Source: Eubacterium sp.
GTDB lineage: Bacteria; Bacillota_A; Clostridia; Peptostreptococcales; Anaerovoracaceae
Length of the DNA stretch: 11,846 nucleotides
Direction: 5' to 3'
Assembly: GCA_017425345.1 (NCBI GenBank)
Contig: JAFOML010000031.1
Location: 1-11,846, forward strand
Position numbers and translations under genes: made by a program. Positions 1,041-11,659 of this stretch are shown here, in pieces; the first letter of the stretch is position 1, and each line of letters begins with the position of its first letter. The notes under the pieces were generated by a model. That model did not search any database, was not told the origin of the DNA, and saw only the letters and a list, made by a program, of their open reading frames with translations.

Positions 1041-2411
1041 CTATTTTTTCCTTGCCAGTGAGAAGAACACACCGATCGTACACAGCACGATGAACACGTG
1101 GAAGCAGGTGTGCATCGTCCGGATCAGAAGGTCAGGTCCCGCAGCATCCAGTGACGATGTGCCCAGAAACAGCCCCACAATGATCGTCACGATCGACATG
1201 CTGGACGAGTGCCCGACATTCCGCATCGTCGCGAGGATCGAATTGGCGACACTGTAGTCTTTCTTTTCCACGCAGCTCATGATCGCGTTCGTGTTCGGCG
1301 AGGAGAACAGGCCGAATCCGATTCCCTCCAGCACTAGCGCGACGATCACATGCGCGATTCCGCTGTCTGCCTGCAGGAACGAGAGAACGATCAGGCCGCT
1401 CACACAGAACAGCATGCCGGCAGTTGCCAGCTTATACGGCGCGATTTTGTCAGACGCTCGTCCGGAAACCGGCGCAATGCAGGCCTGTACGACCGGCATA
1501 CATACCAGGATCAGACCGGCAGTCTGCGAGCTGTAGCCGAAAACGATCTGCAAAAAGATGCTGACGAGATACGTGATCGCAAATGTCGAGCCGTAATTGA
1601 GCAGCGCAGCGAAATTAGACAGTGTAAACACGAGGTCCTTGGTAAACATCGTGACACGGATGACCGGATCCTCTGCCCGGCTCTCCACGAAGAAGAAGAG
1701 AATCCCAAGCGCGATACCGATGACCAGAAATATCCATCCGAACCGGTTTGTCGTCAGACTCGTAAGCCCGTACAGGAAGGACGCGATCCCAAAGATAAAG
1801 AGAATGCTGCCTGCAGCATCGACTTTCAGTCCAGTGCCCTTCTGGTCGCGCGGCGCGCCCATCCAGGCAAACAGGAAGGAGCAGACCGCTATCGCGGTAC
1901 TGAACAGAAAGATCGAACGCCAGCCGAAATTCTGGTTCAGAAATCCTCCGAGAACCGGCCCGAGCGAAAGGCCTGTATAGACGGCAGCCGTTGAAATTCC
2001 AAGCACCTTTCCCCTTTGATTCCCCGGGAATACACTGATCAGAATGGCATTGTTCGTCGCAAAGATCATCGACCCGAAAATGCCCTGCAGCACGCGCAGG
2101 AATACCATAACCTTTATATTAGCAACCATCGAGATCGCCACATTTAAAAGGCCAAACACCGCGATTCCGATCAGCAGAATCCGGCGCCGGCCGGTCGCAT
2201 CCGCCAGTTTTCCCATCGGCACGCTGAAGGCTGCAACCGTCAGCGTATATGCGGTTACGATCCACCCTACCATGGCGCCGCTGACCGCAAATTCCGTCTC
2301 GATCGCCGGGATAGACAGATTGAGGGCGCTGCCCATGAAAGTCGTCACGAAGGATGTCACGACCGCCATACGCAGCGCCGCTTTTCTTTGTTTTTCCGTA
2401 TATTCTTCCAT
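1041..2411 (-). CDS. MFS transporter, DHA2-like (14 TM) drug/solute:H+ antiporter
   Basis: This is a membrane transporter of 456 residues, predicted to export a small molecule in exchange for protons. About 14 hydrophobic segments can be read (near 13-34, 48-66, 77-96, 101-122, 136-157, 164-184, 199-219, 226-243, 261-288, 296-317, 328-346, 353-371, 402-418 and 435-452). MFS motif A is GKLADATGRRR (67-77), motif B is RVLQG (106-110), and the antiporter motif C is GLSLGPVLGG (147-156). Motif C and 14 helices point to the DHA2 (EmrB/QacA) group. Its ATG shares one base with the stop of the upstream metA-aspartokinase gene (TAATG on the minus strand). There is only a weak purine stretch before it, so translation is probably coupled. 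It is the last gene of the operon and faces the bidirectional terminator. The substrate cannot be told from sequence: a drug, a metabolite or an amino acid are all possible. Confidence 0.88.
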   Translation of the reverse strand: MEEYTEKQRKAALRMAVVTSFVTTFMGSALNLSIPAIETEFAVSGAMVGWIVTAYTLTVAAFSVPMGKLADATGRRRILLIGIAVFGLLNVAISMVANIKVMVFLRVLQGIFGSMIFATNNAILISVFPGNQRGKVLGISTAAVYTGLSLGPVLGGFLNQNFGWRSIFLFSTAIAVCSFLFAWMGAPRDQKGTGLKVDAAGSILFIFGIASFLYGLTSLTTNRFGWIFLVIGIALGILFFFVESRAEDPVIRVTMFTKDLVFTLSNFAALLNYGSTFAITYLVSIFLQIVFGYSSQTAGLILVCMPVVQACIAPVSGRASDKIAPYKLATAGMLFCVSGLIVLSFLQADSGIAHVIVALVLEGIGFGLFSSPNTNAIMSCVEKKDYSVANSILATMRNVGHSSSMSIVTIIVGLFLGTSSLDAAGPDLLIRTMHTCFHVFIVLCTIGVFFSLARKK

Positions 2412-4666
2412 TACTTTCTCGTAAACTCCGCATAGATCGCGCGGATGCTGGCGCCATAGTCCTTCGCATCCACACTGATCGTCATACTGATGCCTTCCAC
2501 ACCATAGTCGATCATCTTGACATTGACCCCCTTGGCGGCGAGGCAGGACAGCAGTTTCGCGCCTACCGCGGGCGAACTTGTCATCTGCCGTCCAATGACC
2601 GCAATGACGGCCAGACCGCTGGTCACATTGACATGCGTCGCATCCACTGCATCCCGGAGCCTTGCGCTGACTTCCCGGATGCGGCCCTTCAGATCCCGCT
2701 CATCGACGATGAAGTTCAGCGAATCGATTCCGGAAAGGATATTCACGATCCCGATCCGGTTCTCCGCGAAGACGTGCATCAGATCCATTCTGGCCTGCGG
2801 ATCGTCGTTCAGCTTGTCCTTTTCGACTACGATGCTGGCATAGCCGGTCCCTCCGGAAATGCCCGAAATCCTAAGAACAGACTGATAGTACTCCGCGTTC
2901 TTGACGATCATCGTGCCGGCATCCTCCGGCTGATTCGTATTCCGGATGCTGATTGGAATACCCTTCCTGCGTACCGGGAAGACCACATCCTCATGCATAA
3001 CTTCCGCGCCCATGACGGACATTTCCCGAAGCTCTTTATACGTGATGACCGGAACCGTCAGCGGATTCTTCACGATGGACGGATCTGCCAGCAGCATGCC
3101 GCTGACATCGGTCCAGTTCTCATACATATCCGCCGTCGTTCCCGCTGCGATCAGGGCGCCGGTGATATCCGACCCGCCCCGCGGGAAAGTCACGATCCTG
3201 CCCTCCGGATCCGATCCGTAGAAGCCCGGGATCACGGCCGTCTTATGCTCTTTCAGCACACGGCCGATGCGGCGGTCGGTCTCCTTGTCGCGGAGCGTTC
3301 CATCCGCATCGAACAGAACGAGCGCGGACGCGTCTACAAAATCATAGCCCAGATACTCCGCCATCACCTTTGCCGACAGATATTCGCCGCGGCTCACAAG
3401 ATAGGACTTCCCTGCCCCGCCTGCCATATCGGCTGCGATCTGATCGATCTCCGCATCCAGATCAAACCGGATGCCCAGTCCGCGGATAATCTCGCGGAAC
3501 CTCGTGATCACCGGAAGCAGCGCATCCCGGAGTTCGTCCGATGACGCGGCTTTGATCAGATGATCCGTGATCTTGATATCGTCTTTATTCCGTTTTCCCG
3601 GCGCAGATACGACCACATACTTGCGTGTGGCATCCGCCCGGATCACTTCCGCCGCCTTCTTGAACTGCGCGGAATTGGCGAGTGAAGTACCGCCGAACTT
3701 GACCACCTTCAAATCCGCCTTCTGCGGCAGCACCGGCGTCAGGTCCTCCATCTCGATCCGTTCGATCTCATAAGGGGTCGACTGGTAGACAAAGTAGTTC
3801 AGCCAGTTTGAATACAAAAGATTCGCGCAGGAACGCCAGCGCACGATCGGCTGCTTCGTATCGTCATCGTCCGGGAAGTAGTTGTCCGGAACGTGCGGGT
3901 TGATGCCCGCCTTCTTATCCCGGGTGTACTCTTTCAGAAGCGTATCCCAGTCGTACTCGGAATGCCCCATCACGAAGATCTGACGGTCGTTCTCCGTCTT
4001 GATCGCAAAAATCCCGGCCTTATCCGAGCTCGCGATGATTTTCAGCTCCGGAATGCGCTCCACATCTTCCCGGTATACCGTCGTATTGCGGGAATGCGGC
4101 ACGTAGAACTCGTCGTCAAAGCCGCGGAACAGCATGCCGTTCTTGTAATCCAGATGGTGCAGGAACACGCCGGAAAGCTTGCACGGCAGCACGTGCTTCT
4201 GGATGCCGAAGTGGTAATACAGCGCCGCCTGCGCGCCCCAGCAGATGTGGAACGTGCTGTGCACGTGGCTCTTGCTCCACTCCATGATCTCACAGAGCTC
4301 GTCCCAGTATTCCACGTCCTCAAACTCCATCAGCTCCACCGGAGCGCCGGTGATGATCATGCCGTCGTAATAGTTCTCGCGGACCTCGTCAAAGGTCTTG
4401 TAGAACGCGATCATGTGCTCCTGCGATGTGTTTTTGGACTTATGGGAACTCGTCTGCAAAAGCTCCAGCTCGATCTGCAGTGGCGTGTTACCGAGCAGTC
4501 TCGTCAGCTGGGTCTCCGTGTCGATCTTCGTCGGCATCAGGTTCAACAGCAGAATATGCAGCGGACGGATGTCCTGCGTCATCGCGCGCGCATCCGTCAT
4601 CACGAACACGTTCTCACGTGTCAGCGTATCCACTGCAGGTAAATTATTCGGTACTTTAATCGGCAT
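2411..4666 (-). CDS. metA: Fusion: homoserine O-acyltransferase (MetA) - aspartate kinase
   Basis: One unbroken 751-residue frame holds two enzymes. Residues 1 to about 306 (3749-4666) are MetA, which acylates homoserine for methionine synthesis: catalytic Cys142 in FHICWGAQ, His235 and Glu237 in GHSEYDW, and the usual C-terminal NLLYSNWLNYFVYQ. Position 111 is Glu (TGAPVEL), the residue reported for acetyl-CoA-using MetA enzymes, whereas E. coli has Gly; acetyl transfer is therefore predicted. After a short linker (307-317), residues 318-751 (2414-3715) form aspartate kinase, which makes aspartyl phosphate: KFGGTS (323-328), SRGE (425-428), RGGSD (496-500), WTDVSG and ADP (518-529), then two ACT-like regulatory domains (about 598-665 and 682-750). 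Both halves are near full family length with motifs intact, so both may be active. Start: ATG with a strong SD. It sits 23 nt after the aminopeptidase gene and overlaps the transporter gene by one base. No riboswitch precedes it; feedback through the ACT domains is likely. Confidence 0.93.
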   Translation of the reverse strand: MPIKVPNNLPAVDTLTRENVFVMTDARAMTQDIRPLHILLLNLMPTKIDTETQLTRLLGNTPLQIELELLQTSSHKSKNTSQEHMIAFYKTFDEVRENYYDGMIITGAPVELMEFEDVEYWDELCEIMEWSKSHVHSTFHICWGAQAALYYHFGIQKHVLPCKLSGVFLHHLDYKNGMLFRGFDDEFYVPHSRNTTVYREDVERIPELKIIASSDKAGIFAIKTENDRQIFVMGHSEYDWDTLLKEYTRDKKAGINPHVPDNYFPDDDDTKQPIVRWRSCANLLYSNWLNYFVYQSTPYEIERIEMEDLTPVLPQKADLKVVKFGGTSLANSAQFKKAAEVIRADATRKYVVVSAPGKRNKDDIKITDHLIKAASSDELRDALLPVITRFREIIRGLGIRFDLDAEIDQIAADMAGGAGKSYLVSRGEYLSAKVMAEYLGYDFVDASALVLFDADGTLRDKETDRRIGRVLKEHKTAVIPGFYGSDPEGRIVTFPRGGSDITGALIAAGTTADMYENWTDVSGMLLADPSIVKNPLTVPVITYKELREMSVMGAEVMHEDVVFPVRRKGIPISIRNTNQPEDAGTMIVKNAEYYQSVLRISGISGGTGYASIVVEKDKLNDDPQARMDLMHVFAENRIGIVNILSGIDSLNFIVDERDLKGRIREVSARLRDAVDATHVNVTSGLAVIAVIGRQMTSSPAVGAKLLSCLAAKGVNVKMIDYGVEGISMTISVDAKDYGASIRAIYAEFTRK

Positions 4667-4689: not shown

Positions 4690-6111
4690 TCAGTCGATTC
4701 TCCTCGCATTGCGCAGGAATGCGGCATAGCCGCGTTTTGTCTCGTAGACATCGGCTTTGCTCGTAGCCTCCCACGGCGCATGCATATTCAGCACTGCGAC
4801 ACCGCTGTCGATGACGTTCATGCCGTACAGCGCCAGAATGTACGCGATGGTCCCGCCGCCGCCCAGGTCGACGCGGCCGAGCTCGGAGAACTGGTAGTTG
4901 ACATCTTCCTTATCCAGGATATCCCGCAGATGGGCGATGTACTCCGCGTTCGCGTCATTCGAACCGGACTTGCCGCGGGCTCCCGTGAACTTATTGAACA
5001 CCATGCCGCCGCCCAGGGACGCCACGTTCTTCTTGTCGAAGCTCGAAGCATACGTCGGGTCGAAAGCACTGCTCACGTCCGAAGACAGCATCGTGCAGCG
5101 AGACAGGCAGCGCTTGAGTCTGAGCTCGCTGTACTCACCTGTCATCGCAAGAACCTCCGCGACCGTATTCTCAAAGAATTTTGATTCCATTCCGGTAGCG
5201 CCTACACTGCCAATCTCCTCCTTGTCCACGAGGATGCAGCATGCGGTGCGCTTCACTTCCGGCACCTCCAGCATCGCGCGGTAAGAAGCAAACGCGCAGA
5301 CGCGGTCATCCTGCCCGTAGGAAAGAACCATGCTGCGGTCCAGTCCTGCCTCACGGGCGCGGCCTGCCGGCACGACCTCCAGCTCAGCCGAGAGGAAATC
5401 CTCCTCTTCGATTCCATAATCCCTCTTCAGGATGTCGAGCACGCGGTTTCTGACCGGATCCTTCTCCGCCTTCGCCTCCTCGCCGTCATCCTTCTTCTCG
5501 ATCTTCAGCGGGCGGTTTCCGACGATGATATCCAGTGCCTCACCGGTGATGACCTCCGTCGCCTTTTTCTGCATCTGCTCCTGCGCAAGGTGGATCAGAA
5601 GATCCGACACGAAGAACACCGGATCTTCCGGACGCTCGCCGATATTGAACTTAACACGGGTGCCGTCTTTCCGTACGGCAACACCGTGGATCGCAAGCGG
5701 CAGAGCCACGTACTGGTATTTCTTGATGCCGCCGTAGTAGTGCGTATCCATGAGCGCGAACCCGCCATCCTCATACAGCGGATTCTGCTTGATGTCAAGA
5801 CGCGGTGAATCGATGTGCGCGCCGAGAATGTTCATGCCGTTATCGATCGGTTCTTCCCCGATGTTGAACATCACGATGGATTTATCCATGTTGATGCGAT
5901 ATACCTTGTCCCCGGGCTCAAGTCTGCGGCCGGAGTCGATCAGCGGTTCCAGATCCGTATATCCGGCTGCCTCGATTTCCCTGCAGATCACGTCCACACA
6001 CTCGCGTTCCGTCTTTCCTTCACTGAGAAAATCCATGTAGTCTGCGCAGAACGCATTGCATTCCGCGACCTGTTCTTCCGTATACTTTTCCCACGTATTC
6101 TTGCCTTCCAT
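4690..6111 (-). CDS. M18 family metalloaminopeptidase (aspartyl aminopeptidase-like)
   Basis: This is a 473-residue cytosolic zinc aminopeptidase of the M18 family. Members remove N-terminal residues, often Asp or Glu, from peptides. Visible metal and catalytic motifs are GAHIDSPR (His99, Asp101), YGQDDR (Asp268), DKEEIGS (Glu298/Glu299), SSDVSSAFDP (Asp345) and NMHAPWE (His444), in family order and spacing. No signal peptide is seen. Length and the MHAPWE ending resemble the longer clostridial type often named apeA rather than the shorter apeB type; this subtype call is tentative. A charged stretch near 203-235 is probably a surface insert. The start is supported by AGGAGG 4 nt upstream, which overlaps the stop codon of the GTPase-nuclease gene. 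The next gene, encoding an aspartokinase fusion, begins 23 nt downstream, so the aminopeptidase may supply free aspartate to that pathway; this link is inference. Confidence 0.92.
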   Translation of the reverse strand: MEGKNTWEKYTEEQVAECNAFCADYMDFLSEGKTERECVDVICREIEAAGYTDLEPLIDSGRRLEPGDKVYRINMDKSIVMFNIGEEPIDNGMNILGAHIDSPRLDIKQNPLYEDGGFALMDTHYYGGIKKYQYVALPLAIHGVAVRKDGTRVKFNIGERPEDPVFFVSDLLIHLAQEQMQKKATEVITGEALDIIVGNRPLKIEKKDDGEEAKAEKDPVRNRVLDILKRDYGIEEEDFLSAELEVVPAGRAREAGLDRSMVLSYGQDDRVCAFASYRAMLEVPEVKRTACCILVDKEEIGSVGATGMESKFFENTVAEVLAMTGEYSELRLKRCLSRCTMLSSDVSSAFDPTYASSFDKKNVASLGGGMVFNKFTGARGKSGSNDANAEYIAHLRDILDKEDVNYQFSELGRVDLGGGGTIAYILALYGMNVIDSGVAVLNMHAPWEATSKADVYETKRGYAAFLRNARRID

Positions 6112-6115
6112 AATG

Positions 6116-6121
6116 CCTCCT
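6116..6121 (-). promoter_or_regulatory. Ribosome binding site of the M18 aminopeptidase, overlapping upstream stop
   Basis: AGGAGG on the minus strand shares bases with the TAG stop (6120-6122) of the GTPase-nuclease gene and lies 4 nt before the ATG at 6109-6111. The spacing is short, and the overlap suggests that ribosomes finishing the first gene affect initiation of the second. Confidence 0.7.
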
Positions 6122-8699
6122 AATAGTTTCTGATCGCCTCGAGCACCGATTCCTCCACGAACCGGACCTCCTCCACAAACTCTCTGGACGAAGTCCTCAC
6201 CGCGCCATGCCCCAGAATAATGAGCTGCTCCAGCCCATCCGAGGACACGACCCGCACCTTGTGGCGTCGCGCGATCTCATGCGTTACCTTCTCAATATAC
6301 ATATCCGCAGTCTCCGCCTCTTTGGTGTAGACTACGTAGATATTCCGTATTTTCTGCTGCGACCCGATGCCGCCCTTGACCTTATATGCGTCGAAGACGA
6401 CGATCACCTCGTACTGCGTGAACCCCTGGTAGTTGCACAGGATATCCACGAGGCGGTCTCTCGCGGCGCCGAACTCGATCTGCGACAGCTCGGCGAGCTC
6501 CGGCCACGCGTGGATCAGGTTGTAGCCGTCGATGAGGATGTAGGTCGGCCCGGTTTTCTGCGGGGTCTTTTTCTTTTTATATACAAAATCTTCATCCCCG
6601 CTCACCGGCCTCTTCGGCGGCTTCCTCCTGCGCGCCGCGCCCGGCGCGGTCAGATCGTGCCGCTTGACCGGCCCGTACGTCCGCTCGAAGATCGCCATCA
6701 GCTCCGCGTCACTCGCAAGCTGCCTGGTGTACTCCTTCGCGCGGGCTGCCATCTGTTCCTCATCCGAGAGCAGATCGCCTGCGTCCAGGACGGACGGGAG
6801 CGACATGTGCTCCTCCACCTCGTCCCACGGGACGATCATCGAACCGCCGTGATCACAGAACACGGAGTCTGCGGTGTTCTCCACATCGCGCAGCGGATCG
6901 TAGCCGATGCGCTCGATCACAGCTTCCTGATCGTGACAGGGTTCATACCCGCTGACCTGACACCGCATGTGTCCTCTTCCCTGCGTATAGGACGCAAGCT
7001 GAGACGGATATCCTTCCATCTCCGAGGCGGGCGCAAAACCCTCCAATACAGACATTATACCCCTAGTCTCGGGTTCTGAAAACCTGCCGTGCATTTTCTG
7101 GATATCGCTCATCGCCCGCCCGACGGATTCCGTCGGCAGTTCGATGGAAAAGCTGAGCCAGGGCTCCAGCAGGATCGTCTCTGCCTTCATCAGACCGTTC
7201 CGCACGGCGCGGTACGTCGCCTGGCGGAAATCTCCGCCCTCCGTATGCTTCTTATGCGCGCGTCCGGCTGCCAGCGTGATCTTCACATCTGTGATCGGCG
7301 CGCCGGTCAGAACGCCGATGTGCGGCTTCTCCGCGAGGTGTGTCAGGATCAGTCTCTGCCAGTTGCGGTCCAGATCATCTTCGTTCGCGATCGTGCTGAA
7401 GATCAGACCGCTGCCCCGCTCGGCGGGTTCCAGCAGCAAGTGCACCTCCGCATAGTGCCGCAGGGGTTCAAAGTGTCCGACCCCTTCCACCGGCGGGCTG
7501 TCCGGCGCCAGCGTCTCCTTGTACACGATCCTTCCGGCATCAAACTGGACCGGATATCCAAAGCGGTCTTCCGCGAGGCGCGCCAGCACCTCCAGCTGGA
7601 CCTGCCCCATGATCTGCACCGTGATGCAGCCTGCCCGGCTGTCCCAGTCCACGTGCAGCATCGGATCTTCCTCTGCGAGCTCGCGGAAGTTCCCGAGCGC
7701 CTTATGCGCGTCGATCTCTCCCGGAAGCAGAACGCGATAGGTCATATATGGCTCCAGGAGTTCCTCTGCCGCGTCCTCTGCGGCGCCAAGGCCCATTCCC
7801 GGTCTAGTCTTCGTCAGTCCTGTGAGAGCACATACGTCGCCTGCCACCGCCGTATCTACAGTCCGGTAACGAAGTCCGGAGTAGATGCGGATCTGGTGAA
7901 CCTTCTCTCCGTCTATCTCCTCTTTCACGGAGAGGCTTCCGCCTGTCATGCGGACGAACGTCAGACGCTCGCCGTTATCATCCCGGCTGATCTTGAACAC
8001 GCGGGCGGCCAGCTCTTCACCCGCCGGCGCGGGTTCCATATACCTTGCCATACCGGAAAGCAGCGTATCGATCCCCTCGATCTTCAGCGCCGAGCCGAAG
8101 TAACATGGGAACACTTCCCGTGCGCGGATCGCCTCCCGGATATCATCGTCCTCGATTTCTCCTTCGGAAAGCAGCTTTTCAGTCAGAGGCTCGCTGGCAA
8201 GCGTCAGCGCGTCTTCCAGTGTATTCTTATCCTCCAGGTCGATACAGCCATTTCCAAATCGCTCCTTCAGATACTCTGTAATCTCGGAGCGCCTACGTAT
8301 GGCCAGGTCCATCTTGTTTACAAAGAGAAAAGTCGGCACCTGATACCGTTCCAAAAGCTTCCACAGCGTATCGGTGTGGCTCTGCACGCCGTCTCCCGCG
8401 CTTATCACGAGCAGCGCGTAGTCGAGTACGGAGAGTGTTCGCTCCATCTCGGCAGAGAAATCCACGTGTCCCGGTGTGTCGAGCAGCGTAAACTCCGCGT
8501 CATTCCAGCTCATCTCGGCTGTCTTGGAGAAGATCGTGATGCCGCGGTTCCGCTCCAGCGTATTTCCGTCAAGGAAAGAATCGCCGTGGTCGACGCGCCC
8601 GGCGTTTCTGATCTCTCCTGCTGTATATAGCATCGCTTCTGACAGTGTGGTCTTTCCTGCGTCCACATGTGCCAGAATGCCGACGGTCCGCTTGCTCAT
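6120..8699 (-). CDS. Fusion: EF-G/TetM-like ribosomal GTPase - Rae1/YacP-type NYN ribonuclease
   Basis: A single 859-residue frame. Residues 1 to about 590 form a complete translational GTPase of the EF-G/TetM type: AHVDAGKT (10-17), RGIT (52-55), DTPGH (74-78), NKMD (128-131) and GSAL (202-205), followed by the domain II-V regions. The domain IV tip reads RAHKKHTEGGDFR (480-492). Residues about 591-678 belong to no part I can name. A Lys/Arg-rich linker (679-717) leads to residues 718-859 (6120-6548), a NYN (PIN-like) domain matching YacP/Rae1: LIDGYN (Asp724), Asp748, VVFDAY (Asp770), TKEAETAD (Asp799), SSDGLEQ (Asp821). B. subtilis Rae1 cuts mRNA on the ribosome. The likely role is GTP-dependent delivery of a nuclease to the ribosomal A site; this is inference. 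Pipelines may call it tetracycline resistance, but the tip does not match the TetM YSPVSTPADFR region, so that is not supported. First gene of the operon, with its own promoter. Confidence 0.92.
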   Translation of the reverse strand: MSKRTVGILAHVDAGKTTLSEAMLYTAGEIRNAGRVDHGDSFLDGNTLERNRGITIFSKTAEMSWNDAEFTLLDTPGHVDFSAEMERTLSVLDYALLVISAGDGVQSHTDTLWKLLERYQVPTFLFVNKMDLAIRRRSEITEYLKERFGNGCIDLEDKNTLEDALTLASEPLTEKLLSEGEIEDDDIREAIRAREVFPCYFGSALKIEGIDTLLSGMARYMEPAPAGEELAARVFKISRDDNGERLTFVRMTGGSLSVKEEIDGEKVHQIRIYSGLRYRTVDTAVAGDVCALTGLTKTRPGMGLGAAEDAAEELLEPYMTYRVLLPGEIDAHKALGNFRELAEEDPMLHVDWDSRAGCITVQIMGQVQLEVLARLAEDRFGYPVQFDAGRIVYKETLAPDSPPVEGVGHFEPLRHYAEVHLLLEPAERGSGLIFSTIANEDDLDRNWQRLILTHLAEKPHIGVLTGAPITDVKITLAAGRAHKKHTEGGDFRQATYRAVRNGLMKAETILLEPWLSFSIELPTESVGRAMSDIQKMHGRFSEPETRGIMSVLEGFAPASEMEGYPSQLASYTQGRGHMRCQVSGYEPCHDQEAVIERIGYDPLRDVENTADSVFCDHGGSMIVPWDEVEEHMSLPSVLDAGDLLSDEEQMAARAKEYTRQLASDAELMAIFERTYGPVKRHDLTAPGAARRRKPPKRPVSGDEDFVYKKKKTPQKTGPTYILIDGYNLIHAWPELAELSQIEFGAARDRLVDILCNYQGFTQYEVIVVFDAYKVKGGIGSQQKIRNIYVVYTKEAETADMYIEKVTHEIARRHKVRVVSSDGLEQLIILGHGAVRTSSREFVEEVRFVEESVLEAIRNY

Positions 8700-8706
8700 A
8701 AGTCAT

Positions 8707-8711
8707 CCTCC
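8707..8711 (-). promoter_or_regulatory. Ribosome binding site of the GTPase-nuclease gene
   Basis: GGAGG on the minus strand lies 7 nt before the ATG at 8697-8699, and the P-loop begins ten residues later, as expected for this GTPase family. The start is therefore firm. Confidence 0.8.
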
Positions 8712-8721
8712 ATAAACATAT

Positions 8722-8751
8722 ATTATACATGAAAACGGCCTTTGGGGGCAA
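8722..8751 (-). promoter_or_regulatory. Putative sigma-A promoter of the four-gene operon
   Basis: On the minus strand a perfect TATAAT (8722-8727) lies 18 nt after TTGCCC (8746-8751), a 4 of 6 match to the -35 consensus. Transcription would start near 8715, giving a leader of only about 15 nt, too short for a riboswitch or T-box. It is the only clear promoter I found for the four genes down to 1041. Confidence 0.65.
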
Positions 8752-8836: not shown

Positions 8837-11659
8837 ATGAGAAGCGAGAAGTATTCCAAGGCGGCAGACCGCAATGCGGAGCCTGCAGGAAAGAGAAAGA
8901 AAAAACTCCCTGTATGGCGTAAGATCCTTCGCGCCATCCTGATCCTGATCGTGGTATGCGTGATCGGCGTAGGCGGATATCTCGTCGCGGCTATCGCCAG
9001 CGCCCCGAGCATCGATCCGAAGAACATCTACGATGATATCGCGCAGTCCTCCATTCTGTACGACCAGGACGGCAATGAGATCGACTCGGTCGATTACGGA
9101 CAGGACCGCACGATCATCAAGTATCAGGATCTGAACGAGGATACGATCCACGCGTTCGTGGCACTGGAGGATAAGACCTTCTTCCAGCACCACGGTTTCA
9201 ACTGGGTCCGCATGATCGGCGCGATCACGCAGGCGGTCCGGGGCAATTCCCAGATCAGCGGCACCAGTACGATCACGCAGCAGCTCGCGCGTAACGTATA
9301 CCTGCCGGAGATCAAGAGTGAACGCAGTATCCGCCGTAAGATCATCGAGATGTACTACGCATTCCGGATCGAGCAGGCGCTGAGTAAGAAGGAGATCGTC
9401 ACAGCTTACCTGAACAGCATCTACTTCGGATACGGCAACTACGGCATTGAGGCTGCGGCGAACACCTATTTCTCCAAGACGACGAGCGAACTGAGCCTGC
9501 TGGAAAGCGCGGCTCTGGCTGCCCTGCCCCAGTCGCCGGACACCTACGCGCTGTTGAAAGACGTGGACAGCGATACGCTGAACGCAGACAATGCGCAGCA
9601 GATCGTGGTCGGCGGAGATACCTACATCTGCAATGATATCGCCAAAGACCGCCGCGACCTCTGCCTCAAACTCATGGCGGATCAGGGGTATATCACGGAA
9701 AAGAAGATGAAGAAGAATCAGGGGAAGGACCTGATCGACTTTATCGATCCGACCATCGAGAAGGAGAGCTCGGATAAGGCATCCTACTTTACCGATTACG
9801 TCTGTGAGACCGTGATCAACGATCTGATGGAGCGCTTCAACCTCCCCTATGATGAGGCCGCGAATATGCTCTACACCGGCGGTCTGAAGATCCACACGAC
9901 GCTGGACTCTCAGGCGCAGTCGGTCGCAGAATCAGAATTCGACGACTCCTATAACTTCCCGGGACTGGCTTATCTCAACCAGGATGAGAACGGGAACATC
10001 GTGACCGACAGCGGCGCGATCTCTCTGTACGCATACGATAATATGTTTGAGGAAGATGGAGATTTTGTCCTCAAGGACAGCGAGGTCGACGTAAACAAGG
10101 ACGGCTCCGTCACCATCAAGGCCGGCCACAGACTCTATATCTACCAGACAGACACGGCCTCCGGCACGGATTACTCCATCGAGTTCAAGCCCTGCTACAA
10201 GAACTCTGACGGCTTCTACATCTACCCGGGCGGCTACATCAACATCCCGCTTTCGGAGAAGACTCCGTCCGGCGACTCGGACGTAACGATCAGCGCGGAA
10301 TACCTCGAAGATAATCCGGAGCTCTTCGATGTCGGTTCTGACAGCCTGAAGGTACGCAGCAGCGCCTACACGCTGCAGGAGGGTGTGATCCAGCCGCAGG
10401 GCGCGATGGTCATCACAGAGGTCGGTACCGGCGAGATCAAGGCGATGATCGGCGGACGCGGCGTCACCGGAAGTCAGACGTTCAACCGCGCGACCGCGAC
10501 CAGACAGCCGGGATCTTCCATCAAGCCGCTGGCAGTCTACAGCGCTGCGCTGCAGGAGAGCTACGAGCTGGAGAAGGAAGGAAAGAAATTCAAATACGTG
10601 GACCTGCACAACGATACGCAGGGAACCAATTATTACGGAGATTACCTGACGGCTGCATCGACGATCATCGACGAGCCGACCAAATACGATGGCAAGAACT
10701 GGCCGTCCAACTCGTATAACGGCTATATGGGAAAGGTCAGCATGCGCAAGGCGCTGCAGCAGTCCATCAACGTCTGCGCAGTCAAGCTGTACAATCAGGT
10801 CGGCGGCGACTACTCCTTCGAGAACGTCAAGAAGTTCGGCATCACTTCTCTCGATGAAGAGAACGACCGCAATCCGGCCGCACTGGCCCTTGGCGGACTG
10901 TCCAACGGTGTTTCCCCGCTGGAGATGTCCCTCGCTTATGCGACGTTCCCGAACGGCGGTGTCCGCAACAGCGCGATCTGCTACACGGAGATTCAGAACC
11001 GTAAGGGAGAGACCCTGATGGAGGGTGAATCGAAAACGACTAAGGTACTGGATGAAGGCGTGGCGTGGATCATGACCGACATGCTCAAGTCCGTCGTCTC
11101 CCAGGGTATCGGCGGAAACGCTTCCGTAAGCGGTGTACAGTCCGGTGGCAAGACCGGAACTACATCCAGCCAGTATGATATCTGGTTTGACGGATTCACA
11201 CCGACCTATGCAGCGGCGCTCTGGATCGGTACGGACGTCAACATACCGCTGACGTCCATGTCCGGCACAGCTGCCCTGCTCTGGGGAAAGATCATGACCC
11301 AGATTCCGGCGGCGACCACTGGCGAGTACCGCGAGAAGCCGGCGAACGTCATTCAGAAGAGCGGCGAATACTTCACCAAGGGAACCGAGACTGGTCTGAA
11401 CCTGTCCCGGGATAACAAGAAGGTGAAGGAGAAGGACGACGAGGAAGAGCCGCAGACTGAGACTGAGGAAAAGAAGAAAGAGAAGAAGACTTCTCCTGAG
11501 AAGCCGGCGATACCGGTCGATCCGGAGCCATCCGATCCGACGGAACCGACTGAGCCGACCGAGCCGACGGAACCGACCGAGCCGACCGAGCCGACTGAGC
11601 CAACGGAACCGACCAACCCGGATAATCCGGACAATCCGAGCAGTTCGACTGCGGGATAA
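8837..11659 (+). CDS. Class A penicillin-binding protein (PBP1A-like): glycosyltransferase + transpeptidase
   Basis: This bifunctional enzyme polymerises and cross-links peptidoglycan on the outer face of the membrane (ponA/mrcA type). Counting from ATG 8837 (940 aa): a basic cytoplasmic tail (1-30) and one TM helix (about 31-54) are followed by a GT51 glycosyltransferase domain with catalytic Glu111 in EDKTFFQHHG, GTSTITQQLARN (142-153) and YLNSIYFGYGNYGIEAA. The transpeptidase has SxxK at Ser560-Lys563 (RQPGSSIKP), SxN at 643-645 (SIN) and KTG at 772-774. Between the two, residues about 366-515 form a long, Asp- and Tyr-rich linker region of unknown fold. The tail after about 855 is charged, then becomes a Pro-Thr-Glu repeat (901-926) and ends NPDNPDNPSSSTAG; it probably lies in the cell wall. 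All catalytic residues are present, so it should be active and beta-lactam sensitive in principle. It is transcribed alone, divergently from the GTPase operon, and ends in a strong terminator. Confidence 0.95.
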   Translation: MRSEKYSKAADRNAEPAGKRKKKLPVWRKILRAILILIVVCVIGVGGYLVAAIASAPSIDPKNIYDDIAQSSILYDQDGNEIDSVDYGQDRTIIKYQDLNEDTIHAFVALEDKTFFQHHGFNWVRMIGAITQAVRGNSQISGTSTITQQLARNVYLPEIKSERSIRRKIIEMYYAFRIEQALSKKEIVTAYLNSIYFGYGNYGIEAAANTYFSKTTSELSLLESAALAALPQSPDTYALLKDVDSDTLNADNAQQIVVGGDTYICNDIAKDRRDLCLKLMADQGYITEKKMKKNQGKDLIDFIDPTIEKESSDKASYFTDYVCETVINDLMERFNLPYDEAANMLYTGGLKIHTTLDSQAQSVAESEFDDSYNFPGLAYLNQDENGNIVTDSGAISLYAYDNMFEEDGDFVLKDSEVDVNKDGSVTIKAGHRLYIYQTDTASGTDYSIEFKPCYKNSDGFYIYPGGYINIPLSEKTPSGDSDVTISAEYLEDNPELFDVGSDSLKVRSSAYTLQEGVIQPQGAMVITEVGTGEIKAMIGGRGVTGSQTFNRATATRQPGSSIKPLAVYSAALQESYELEKEGKKFKYVDLHNDTQGTNYYGDYLTAASTIIDEPTKYDGKNWPSNSYNGYMGKVSMRKALQQSINVCAVKLYNQVGGDYSFENVKKFGITSLDEENDRNPAALALGGLSNGVSPLEMSLAYATFPNGGVRNSAICYTEIQNRKGETLMEGESKTTKVLDEGVAWIMTDMLKSVVSQGIGGNASVSGVQSGGKTGTTSSQYDIWFDGFTPTYAAALWIGTDVNIPLTSMSGTAALLWGKIMTQIPAATTGEYREKPANVIQKSGEYFTKGTETGLNLSRDNKKVKEKDDEEEPQTETEEKKKEKKTSPEKPAIPVDPEPSDPTEPTEPTEPTEPTEPTEPTEPTEPTNPDNPDNPSSSTAG
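11537..11614 (+). repeat. 9-bp tandem repeat coding Pro-Thr-Glu
   Basis: Eight Pro-Thr-Glu units plus a final Pro-Thr lie inside the PBP gene (residues 901-926). The codons vary (ACG, ACT, ACC; GAA, GAG; one CCA), so the protein repeat is better kept than the DNA repeat. Such tails are usually extended and may span or bind the cell wall. The tract is a candidate for length variation between strains. Confidence 0.9.

Follow-up and report, generated by a model that had tools for sequence, protein, structure and literature searches.

How does Rae1, described in the relevant sections of three reports as an mRNA-cutting ribonuclease of the ribosomal A site that enters paused ribosomes (PMC6613710, PMC12320835, PMC10100781), reach the A site of chosen ribosomes? 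This question is made directly testable by a natural fusion of a translational GTPase to a Rae1-like domain, encoded in an 11,846-nucleotide stretch of DNA from Eubacterium sp. (contig JAFOML010000031.1 of assembly GCA_017425345.1), which we refer to as the window. The fusion gene (6120..8699, on the minus strand with all of its parts) is a single open reading frame with an ATG start, and it encodes 859 amino acids.

The fusion in place of free Rae1

A preliminary description of the window had read this frame as a complete EF-G/TetM-type GTPase followed by a C-terminal NYN domain with the acidic residues of YacP/Rae1, and both statements hold. Pfam recognizes the GTPase domain (GTP_EFTU, residues 4-222, 8034..8690, E = 1.9e-52), in which the G motifs are intact (G1 AHVDAGKTT, G2 RGIT, G3 DTPGH, G4 NKMD, and G5 SAL), and the YacP/Rae1 NYN nuclease domain (NYN_YacP, residues 721-854, 6138..6539, E = 1.3e-46), the latter with 159.1 bits against a curated cut-off of 24.6. 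For the NYN part, 5mq8 and 5mq9, the B. subtilis YacP/Rae1 chains of known structure, are further matches (E about 7e-28), and all five of the expected acidic residues (D724, D770, D799, E803, and D821) are found.

We compared the occurrence of free and fused Rae1 in 196 genomes of the class Clostridia, 128 of which contain a PF05991 match. Free Rae1 is present in 58 genomes, the fusion in 70, and both together in none, against about 20.7 expected if the two were independent (the associated probability of 1.3e-14 ignores kinship, and genome completeness is not stated). A separate yacP and the fusion are thus mutually exclusive in these relatives, and the fusion is the only Rae1 in 70 of the 128 Rae1-bearing genomes. 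The free or fused state was called from open-frame length, the free frames spanning 168-217 amino acids in the 58 copies, and 29 fusion loci of this sample were fetched and checked for both parts in one frame. Among the fusion loci checked, two are cut by contig ends, and L130, L121, and L248 are cut N-terminally; the genomes counted as fusion carriers include G200, where only GTPase C-terminal sequence precedes the NYN domain at a contig end, and G071, where the fusion is frameshifted. A further 20 genomes reached through fusion loci each contain exactly one PF05991 match, in every case within the fusion. Copy number is one Rae1 per genome, except for a single 1.8-Mb assembly (G153) whose two fusion genes differ from each other and lie on separate contigs, the result of either a duplication or a mixed assembly; a second match in G156 stays below the cut-off.

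The genomic position of the nuclease changes together with its form. Directly upstream of free rae1 lies rlmB in 51 of 58 loci, directly downstream lies sigH in 49, and one or both adjoin the gene in 57, whereas neither is next to the fusion in any of 81 loci. Since rae1 is absent from its place beside rlmB and sigH while rlmB itself is retained (19 of 20 fusion genomes), the gene was lost there and persists in the fusion. Because no genome has both forms and the rlmB/sigH position is not found at the fusion, we conclude that the fusion is, judged by gene content and context, the Rae1 of these clostridial genomes. It looks like a housekeeping device and not like a resistance gene.

The preliminary description had allowed that a sequencing error might have joined two genes, or that the NYN part might be made separately, and neither possibility withstood comparison. 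Both parts are present in all 120 of the homologues examined (the best 120 of 7982 candidates scored) and in all 80 loci kept from a GTDB search that yielded at least 573 candidate stretches encoding a relative, in each case upon a two-profile re-check, which rules out a sequencing or assembly join as the cause of the fusion. Named carriers include Hornefia, Aminicella, Anaerotruncus, Pygmaiobacter, Agathobaculum, Monoglobus, and Agathobacter rectalis. An internal start for the NYN part, for which we required both a start codon and a Shine-Dalgarno-like stretch at most 25 codons before the domain, is plausible in only 2 of 123 fusions and is not conserved. In one locus (L265, genome G071), the GTPase and the NYN domain are read in different frames that overlap, owing to a frameshift that is either real or assembly-made. 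The surroundings of the fusion offer no conserved neighbor as a clue to function, the largest other cluster occurring in 11 of 81 fusion loci.

The residues expected to matter in both modules are strongly kept. D724 and D770 are unchanged in all 122 other fusions, D799, E803, and D821 in all 121 that have a residue there, and the five are also kept in 58 of 58 free copies; E796, in turn, is E in 99 fusions and Q in 22, and is therefore not strictly required. We take the conserved acidic residues to be catalytic, as in the NYN/PIN fold. In the GTPase, the G1-G4 positions are invariant in the 88-90 fusion rows that reach them, except that H11 is replaced in one, and S203 of G5 is A in six rows. 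Both active sites are, by these alignments, conserved, and the fusion thus presents one protein with two active sites, each of which could be killed by a single mutation.

The C-terminal end of the nuclease differs between the two forms. In the window's protein, the NYN match ends at position 136 of the 166 in the Pfam profile, leaving it without the tail of free Rae1, and in the class sample the match ends before position 159 in 45 of 70 fusions vs none of 58 free copies. Fewer than 15 residues follow the NYN core in 93 of 123 fusions, a set skewed toward the window by the 80 loci chosen for similarity to it, and in 0 of 58 free copies, all of which have 24-48 residues beyond the core. In B. 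subtilis, the R166P change in the C-terminal part of Rae1 is among suppressors whose class is read as loss of function in the section concerned (PMC6613710). Therefore, the tail matters in free Rae1 and seems dispensable once a GTPase is attached, a hint that it helps free Rae1 to reach the ribosome and that the attached GTPase may relieve it of this role.

Origin of the GTPase module and of the fusion

Beyond the GTPase domain, the protein continues through EF-G-like domain II (EF-G_D2, residues 231-297, 7809..8009) and domain III (EFG_III, residues 317-385, 7545..7751), with Pfam scores of 25.4 and 20.6 against a gathering score of 27, to domain IV (EFG_IV, residues 390-507, 7179..7532) and domain V (EFG_C, residues 510-591, 6927..7172). 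The two sub-threshold domains agree with the fold obtained with AlphaFold2 and Foldseek, where the best matches of the whole model are EF-G-type chains, which tell nothing about the NYN part. With intact G motifs and domains I-V present, the module is, as far as sequence can tell, a translational GTPase of EF-G type. The tip of domain IV, GRAHKKHTEGGDFRQAT (residues 479-495, 7215..7265), is common to unfused relatives; alignment further delimits a C-terminal extension with ADSVFCDHG and PWDEV (residues 587-637, 6789..6941). A linker follows (residues 638-716, 6552..6788), which contains the motif ELMAIFERTYGPVKR and is otherwise basic and poorly ordered. In the AlphaFold2 model, built from a 56-row alignment (mean predicted local distance difference test [pLDDT] 83.6, predicted template modeling score [pTM] 0.62), the folded modules comprise residues 1 to about 640 and 717-859, and pLDDT in the linker falls below 50 at 641-646, 661-664, and 679-716.

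Is this GTPase a Tet protein? The best NCBIfam model is tet_protect, yet the fusion reaches only 396.7 bits against a cut-off of 775, and it likewise falls short of the OtrA model (306.6 against 900) and of the EF-G model (283.7 against 659.4). As a control, a TetM-like protein from a clostridial genome (L137) passes with 1503 vs 1420, and L199 passes two cut-offs. The tip of domain IV in TetM, GLYYSPVSTPADFR, differs from that of the fusion, as does the EF-G tip: over 25 positions, the fusion is identical at 5 to TetM-like L137, at 6 to EF-G, and at 18 to the unfused GTPase L131 (the OtrA tip lies outside this comparison). The C-terminal extension is absent from the TetM-like and EF-G rows compared. 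Score, branch (see below), and tip, the tests that we ran, all place the fusion GTPase outside the Tet proteins.

Its closest kin are instead unfused GTPases of about 650 amino acids. Such a protein, 42-46% identical to the fusion, is encoded in 5 of 40 free-Rae1 genomes (in two copies in G141), and the other GTPase matches in these 40 genomes are one 36% relative and one true TetM-like protein. Among 20 genomes without PF05991, two encode the unfused GTPase and two have Tet-like genes; all 30 fusion genomes searched hold the fusion, and 4 of them also have one or two Tet-like genes. The unfused relatives have the same domain IV tip and C-terminal extension, and they end where the fusion linker starts. 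In the GTPase tree, all 26 fusions fall on one side of a branch (SH-like approximate likelihood ratio test, 91), eight unfused GTPases are their sister (98), and the two together stand apart from eight Tet-like rows and from EF-G (100); the Tet rows are of TetM/O/W type only, with OtrA and TetQ left out. By sequence, the fusion GTPase comes from an unfused, Tet-like GTPase family of about 650 amino acids, and the NYN domain from free Rae1. The 36% relative, L135 (genome G167), is a 636-residue GTPase whose tip, EGEDHVMHSNPGDF, is intermediate between the fusion and Tet types. A further unfused GTPase (L270) is encoded on the 242-kb plasmid pMP118 of Ligilactobacillus salivarius, adjoining a gene for 30S ribosomal protein S14, and plasmid genes resembling it are common in this species.

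The NYN tree (147 columns, with 44 of 102 inner branches open) places 45 of 46 fusions, together with one free copy (L210), in a supported set (97); the remaining fusion, L250, falls outside on a long branch. A single clade of all 46 fusions has a higher likelihood and is not rejected (p-value of the approximately unbiased test, p-AU, 0.882; 0.543 with L210 added), and repeated independent fusion was set aside on this result. Both trees are quick searches in which several long rows were flagged, and they are most simply read as the outcome of one fusion event. The free copy L210 (2285-2893, genome G180) is a 202-residue NYN protein whose genome is without a match to the GTPase at E 1e-60; it may be a former fusion from which the GTPase was lost.

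Proposed action on the ribosome and alternatives

The fusion is probably a Rae1 tethered to a translational GTPase, that is, a GTPase-guided mRNA endonuclease of the ribosomal A site. Tet-type factors occupy the A site, and their release needs GTP hydrolysis, as stated in the relevant part of PMC8161019. By analogy, the GTPase module would bind ribosomes with a free A site, like TetM and EF-G, and the tip of domain IV would read or clear that site. Hydrolysis of GTP would then free the module from the ribosome, and the NYN domain, on its flexible tether of about 80 residues, could enter the vacated A site and cut the mRNA. Since domain IV and a docked Rae1 need the same space, these steps are most likely sequential and not simultaneous. 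The preliminary description proposed that a GTP-driven factor takes a nuclease to ribosomes, and this idea gains indirect support, in that the fusion replaces free Rae1, which acts as an A-site mRNase in the portions of the reports concerned (PMC6613710, PMC12320835, PMC10100781); a role in rescue or in stress, also raised there, is a possibility.

A more specific version, which we offer tentatively and consider less likely to be right than wrong, is that the GTPase works as a timed delivery device. It would probe the A sites of ribosomes that are slow or stalled, and the Rae1 domain would enter and cut only if the site were still empty after hydrolysis and release. The cut would send the mRNA into decay and leave the ribosome for rescue. 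In about half of the clostridial genomes with Rae1, this is the form that the enzyme would generally take, one that public records now label tetracycline resistance.

Several points weigh against a tethered, GTPase-guided Rae1. Domain IV would vie with Rae1 for the same site, the AlphaFold2 model (with the pTM given above) fixes no placement of the NYN domain, and the case is built from sequence comparison. The Rae1 tail is kept in 25 of 70 fusions, so its loss is not general, and the position of L210 beside the fusions means that the link may have been broken again. As many as 68 of the 196 genomes have neither free nor fused Rae1. Among the free-Rae1 genomes searched for the GTPase, 33 of 40 are without a match at E 1e-60, and only 5 of the 40 have the unfused GTPase; free Rae1 thus works without such a partner, and nuclease and GTPase need not go together outside the fusion. 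Finally, the sole suggestion in print for such proteins, in the passage of Atkinson 2015 devoted to them, is antibiotic resistance (PMC4342817).

The alternative that survives best, which we nevertheless regard as unlikely, is that GTPase and nuclease work separately on the ribosome, without handing over from one to the other, and were joined only for co-expression or co-localization; Rae1 could, for example, accompany a rescue GTPase of EF-G-like or drug-independent kind. In the five free-Rae1 genomes that have it, the unfused GTPase is indeed encoded separately from Rae1 and not adjacent to it, and its presence in 2 of 20 genomes without PF05991 means that the GTPase can serve a purpose by itself. 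The long and poorly ordered linker of the model is also compatible with two independent modules. Against a fusion of convenience, every intact example examined is a single frame and free Rae1 has been given up, and in many fusions the Rae1 tail is missing.

It is still less probable that the protein is a resistance factor, that is, a Tet-type ribosome protection protein that acquired a ribonuclease, after Atkinson 2015 (PMC4342817, the Tet-NYN passage). Besides this printed suggestion, public records call such proteins TetM/TetW/TetO/TetS family, and tet_protect is the top NCBIfam model. The missed cut-off, which the TetM-like control passes, the separate branch (with respect to TetM/O/W-type rows), and the domain IV tip all argue against it. 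Loop III at the tip of TetM domain IV is key for drug displacement (PMC4750697), and Pro-509 in this loop has been implicated in it (PMC8161019); several loop III changes leave TetM active (PMC4750697, like the preceding points from parts of these papers), and the tip sequence therefore lowers the resistance reading and does not remove it. True Tet-like genes stand alongside the fusion in the 4 of 30 genomes noted above, the fusion has no conserved mobile neighborhood, and it replaces a housekeeping gene.

A role of the NYN domain in rRNA or tRNA processing, the GTPase then being an assembly or recycling factor of the ribosome, has an earlier proposal for NYN domains quoted in part of Atkinson 2015 (PMC4342817), the single pathway of B. 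subtilis rae1 and rlmB (yacO) loss (PMC6613710, in the section concerned), and the link of free rae1 to rlmB in its favor, but is highly improbable, given that characterized Rae1 cuts mRNA during translation (relevant parts of PMC6613710, PMC12320835, PMC10100781) and that the fusion is no longer at the rlmB locus.

Prior description, other window features, and known systems

The fusion architecture is already in print: Atkinson 2015 (PMC4342817), in its passage on the group, describes, from ten Clostridiales species, Tet proteins that carry an NYN domain of YacP type, and proposes antibiotic resistance for these Tet-NYN proteins. Judged by architecture, the window's protein belongs to this group. 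What our comparisons add, to a kind of protein that was already known, is evidence on what the fusion replaces. Leroy 2017 and Condon 2018 are reportedly the founding Rae1 papers, and the latter is said to treat the distribution of Rae1. Literature searches aimed at the fusion, whose coverage did not extend to these two, returned no paper beyond Atkinson 2015.

In public records, several fusions and unfused relatives bear tetracycline resistance names (TetM/TetW/TetO/TetS), for example in Agathobacter rectalis and on Ligilactobacillus salivarius pMP118. Both the window's protein and the Ligilactobacillus salivarius relative fail the Tet cut-offs. The proteins of this kind that we scanned do not reach the models' own cut-offs, and surveys of gut genomes for resistance may be listing a housekeeping factor among the resistance genes.

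Upstream of the fusion gene, a ribosome binding site, GGAGG, can be read nine bases before the start codon (8707..8711, minus strand). A promoter-like TTGCCC-18-TATAAT lies about 22 bases ahead of the ATG (8722..8751, minus strand); it is a consensus match only, from a scan of the region that gave 3 matches vs 1.7 expected from shuffles, which is near the shuffle number. Eight bases past the fusion stop codon, on the same strand, starts an M18 aminopeptidase gene (4690-6111), which is not conserved as a neighbor across the 81 loci. The window encodes a second fusion (2411-4666, minus strand), in which 751 amino acids join homoserine O-succinyltransferase (residues 2-299) to aspartokinase (AA_kinase 319-576, ACT 688-748), enzymes for two steps in one amino acid pathway; both Pfam domains are present in 120 of 120 homologues among the matches listed. 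At 11525-11614 (plus strand), the gene of a penicillin-binding protein contains a tandem repeat that encodes Thr-Glu-Pro units at the protein's C terminus.

Among known systems, EF-G resembles the fusion in the fold of domains I-V, as the best Foldseek matches indicate, and differs in its tip, in being without the C-terminal extension, and in being the essential translocase, which is retained beside the fusion. TetM, TetO, and TetW have the same domain order and about 31-32% identity, but differ in the domain IV tip and at the C-terminal end, and they reach the Tet cut-offs, which the fusion does not. The unfused clostridial GTPase of about 650 amino acids, which also occurs on Ligilactobacillus salivarius plasmids (rows L131-L134, L136, L138, L195, L196, and L270 of our set), is closer, with 42-49% identity over the GTPase part, the same type of domain IV tip (a variant in L270), and the C-terminal extension; it stops at the start of the fusion's linker and is without the nuclease. 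Rae1/YacP of B. subtilis (5mq8, 5mq9) has an NYN domain with the same acidic residues and, like the fusion, is the sole PF05991 protein of its genome, but it is a free protein of 170-180 amino acids with a C-terminal tail, encoded beside rlmB and sigH, and has no GTPase. The Tet-NYN proteins of Atkinson 2015 (PMC4342817), as its passage on them goes, agree with the window's protein in architecture, domain order, and Clostridiales home; they are filed there under Tet proteins and resistance, whereas in our comparison the GTPase does not group within the Tet branch and the fusion takes the place of free Rae1.

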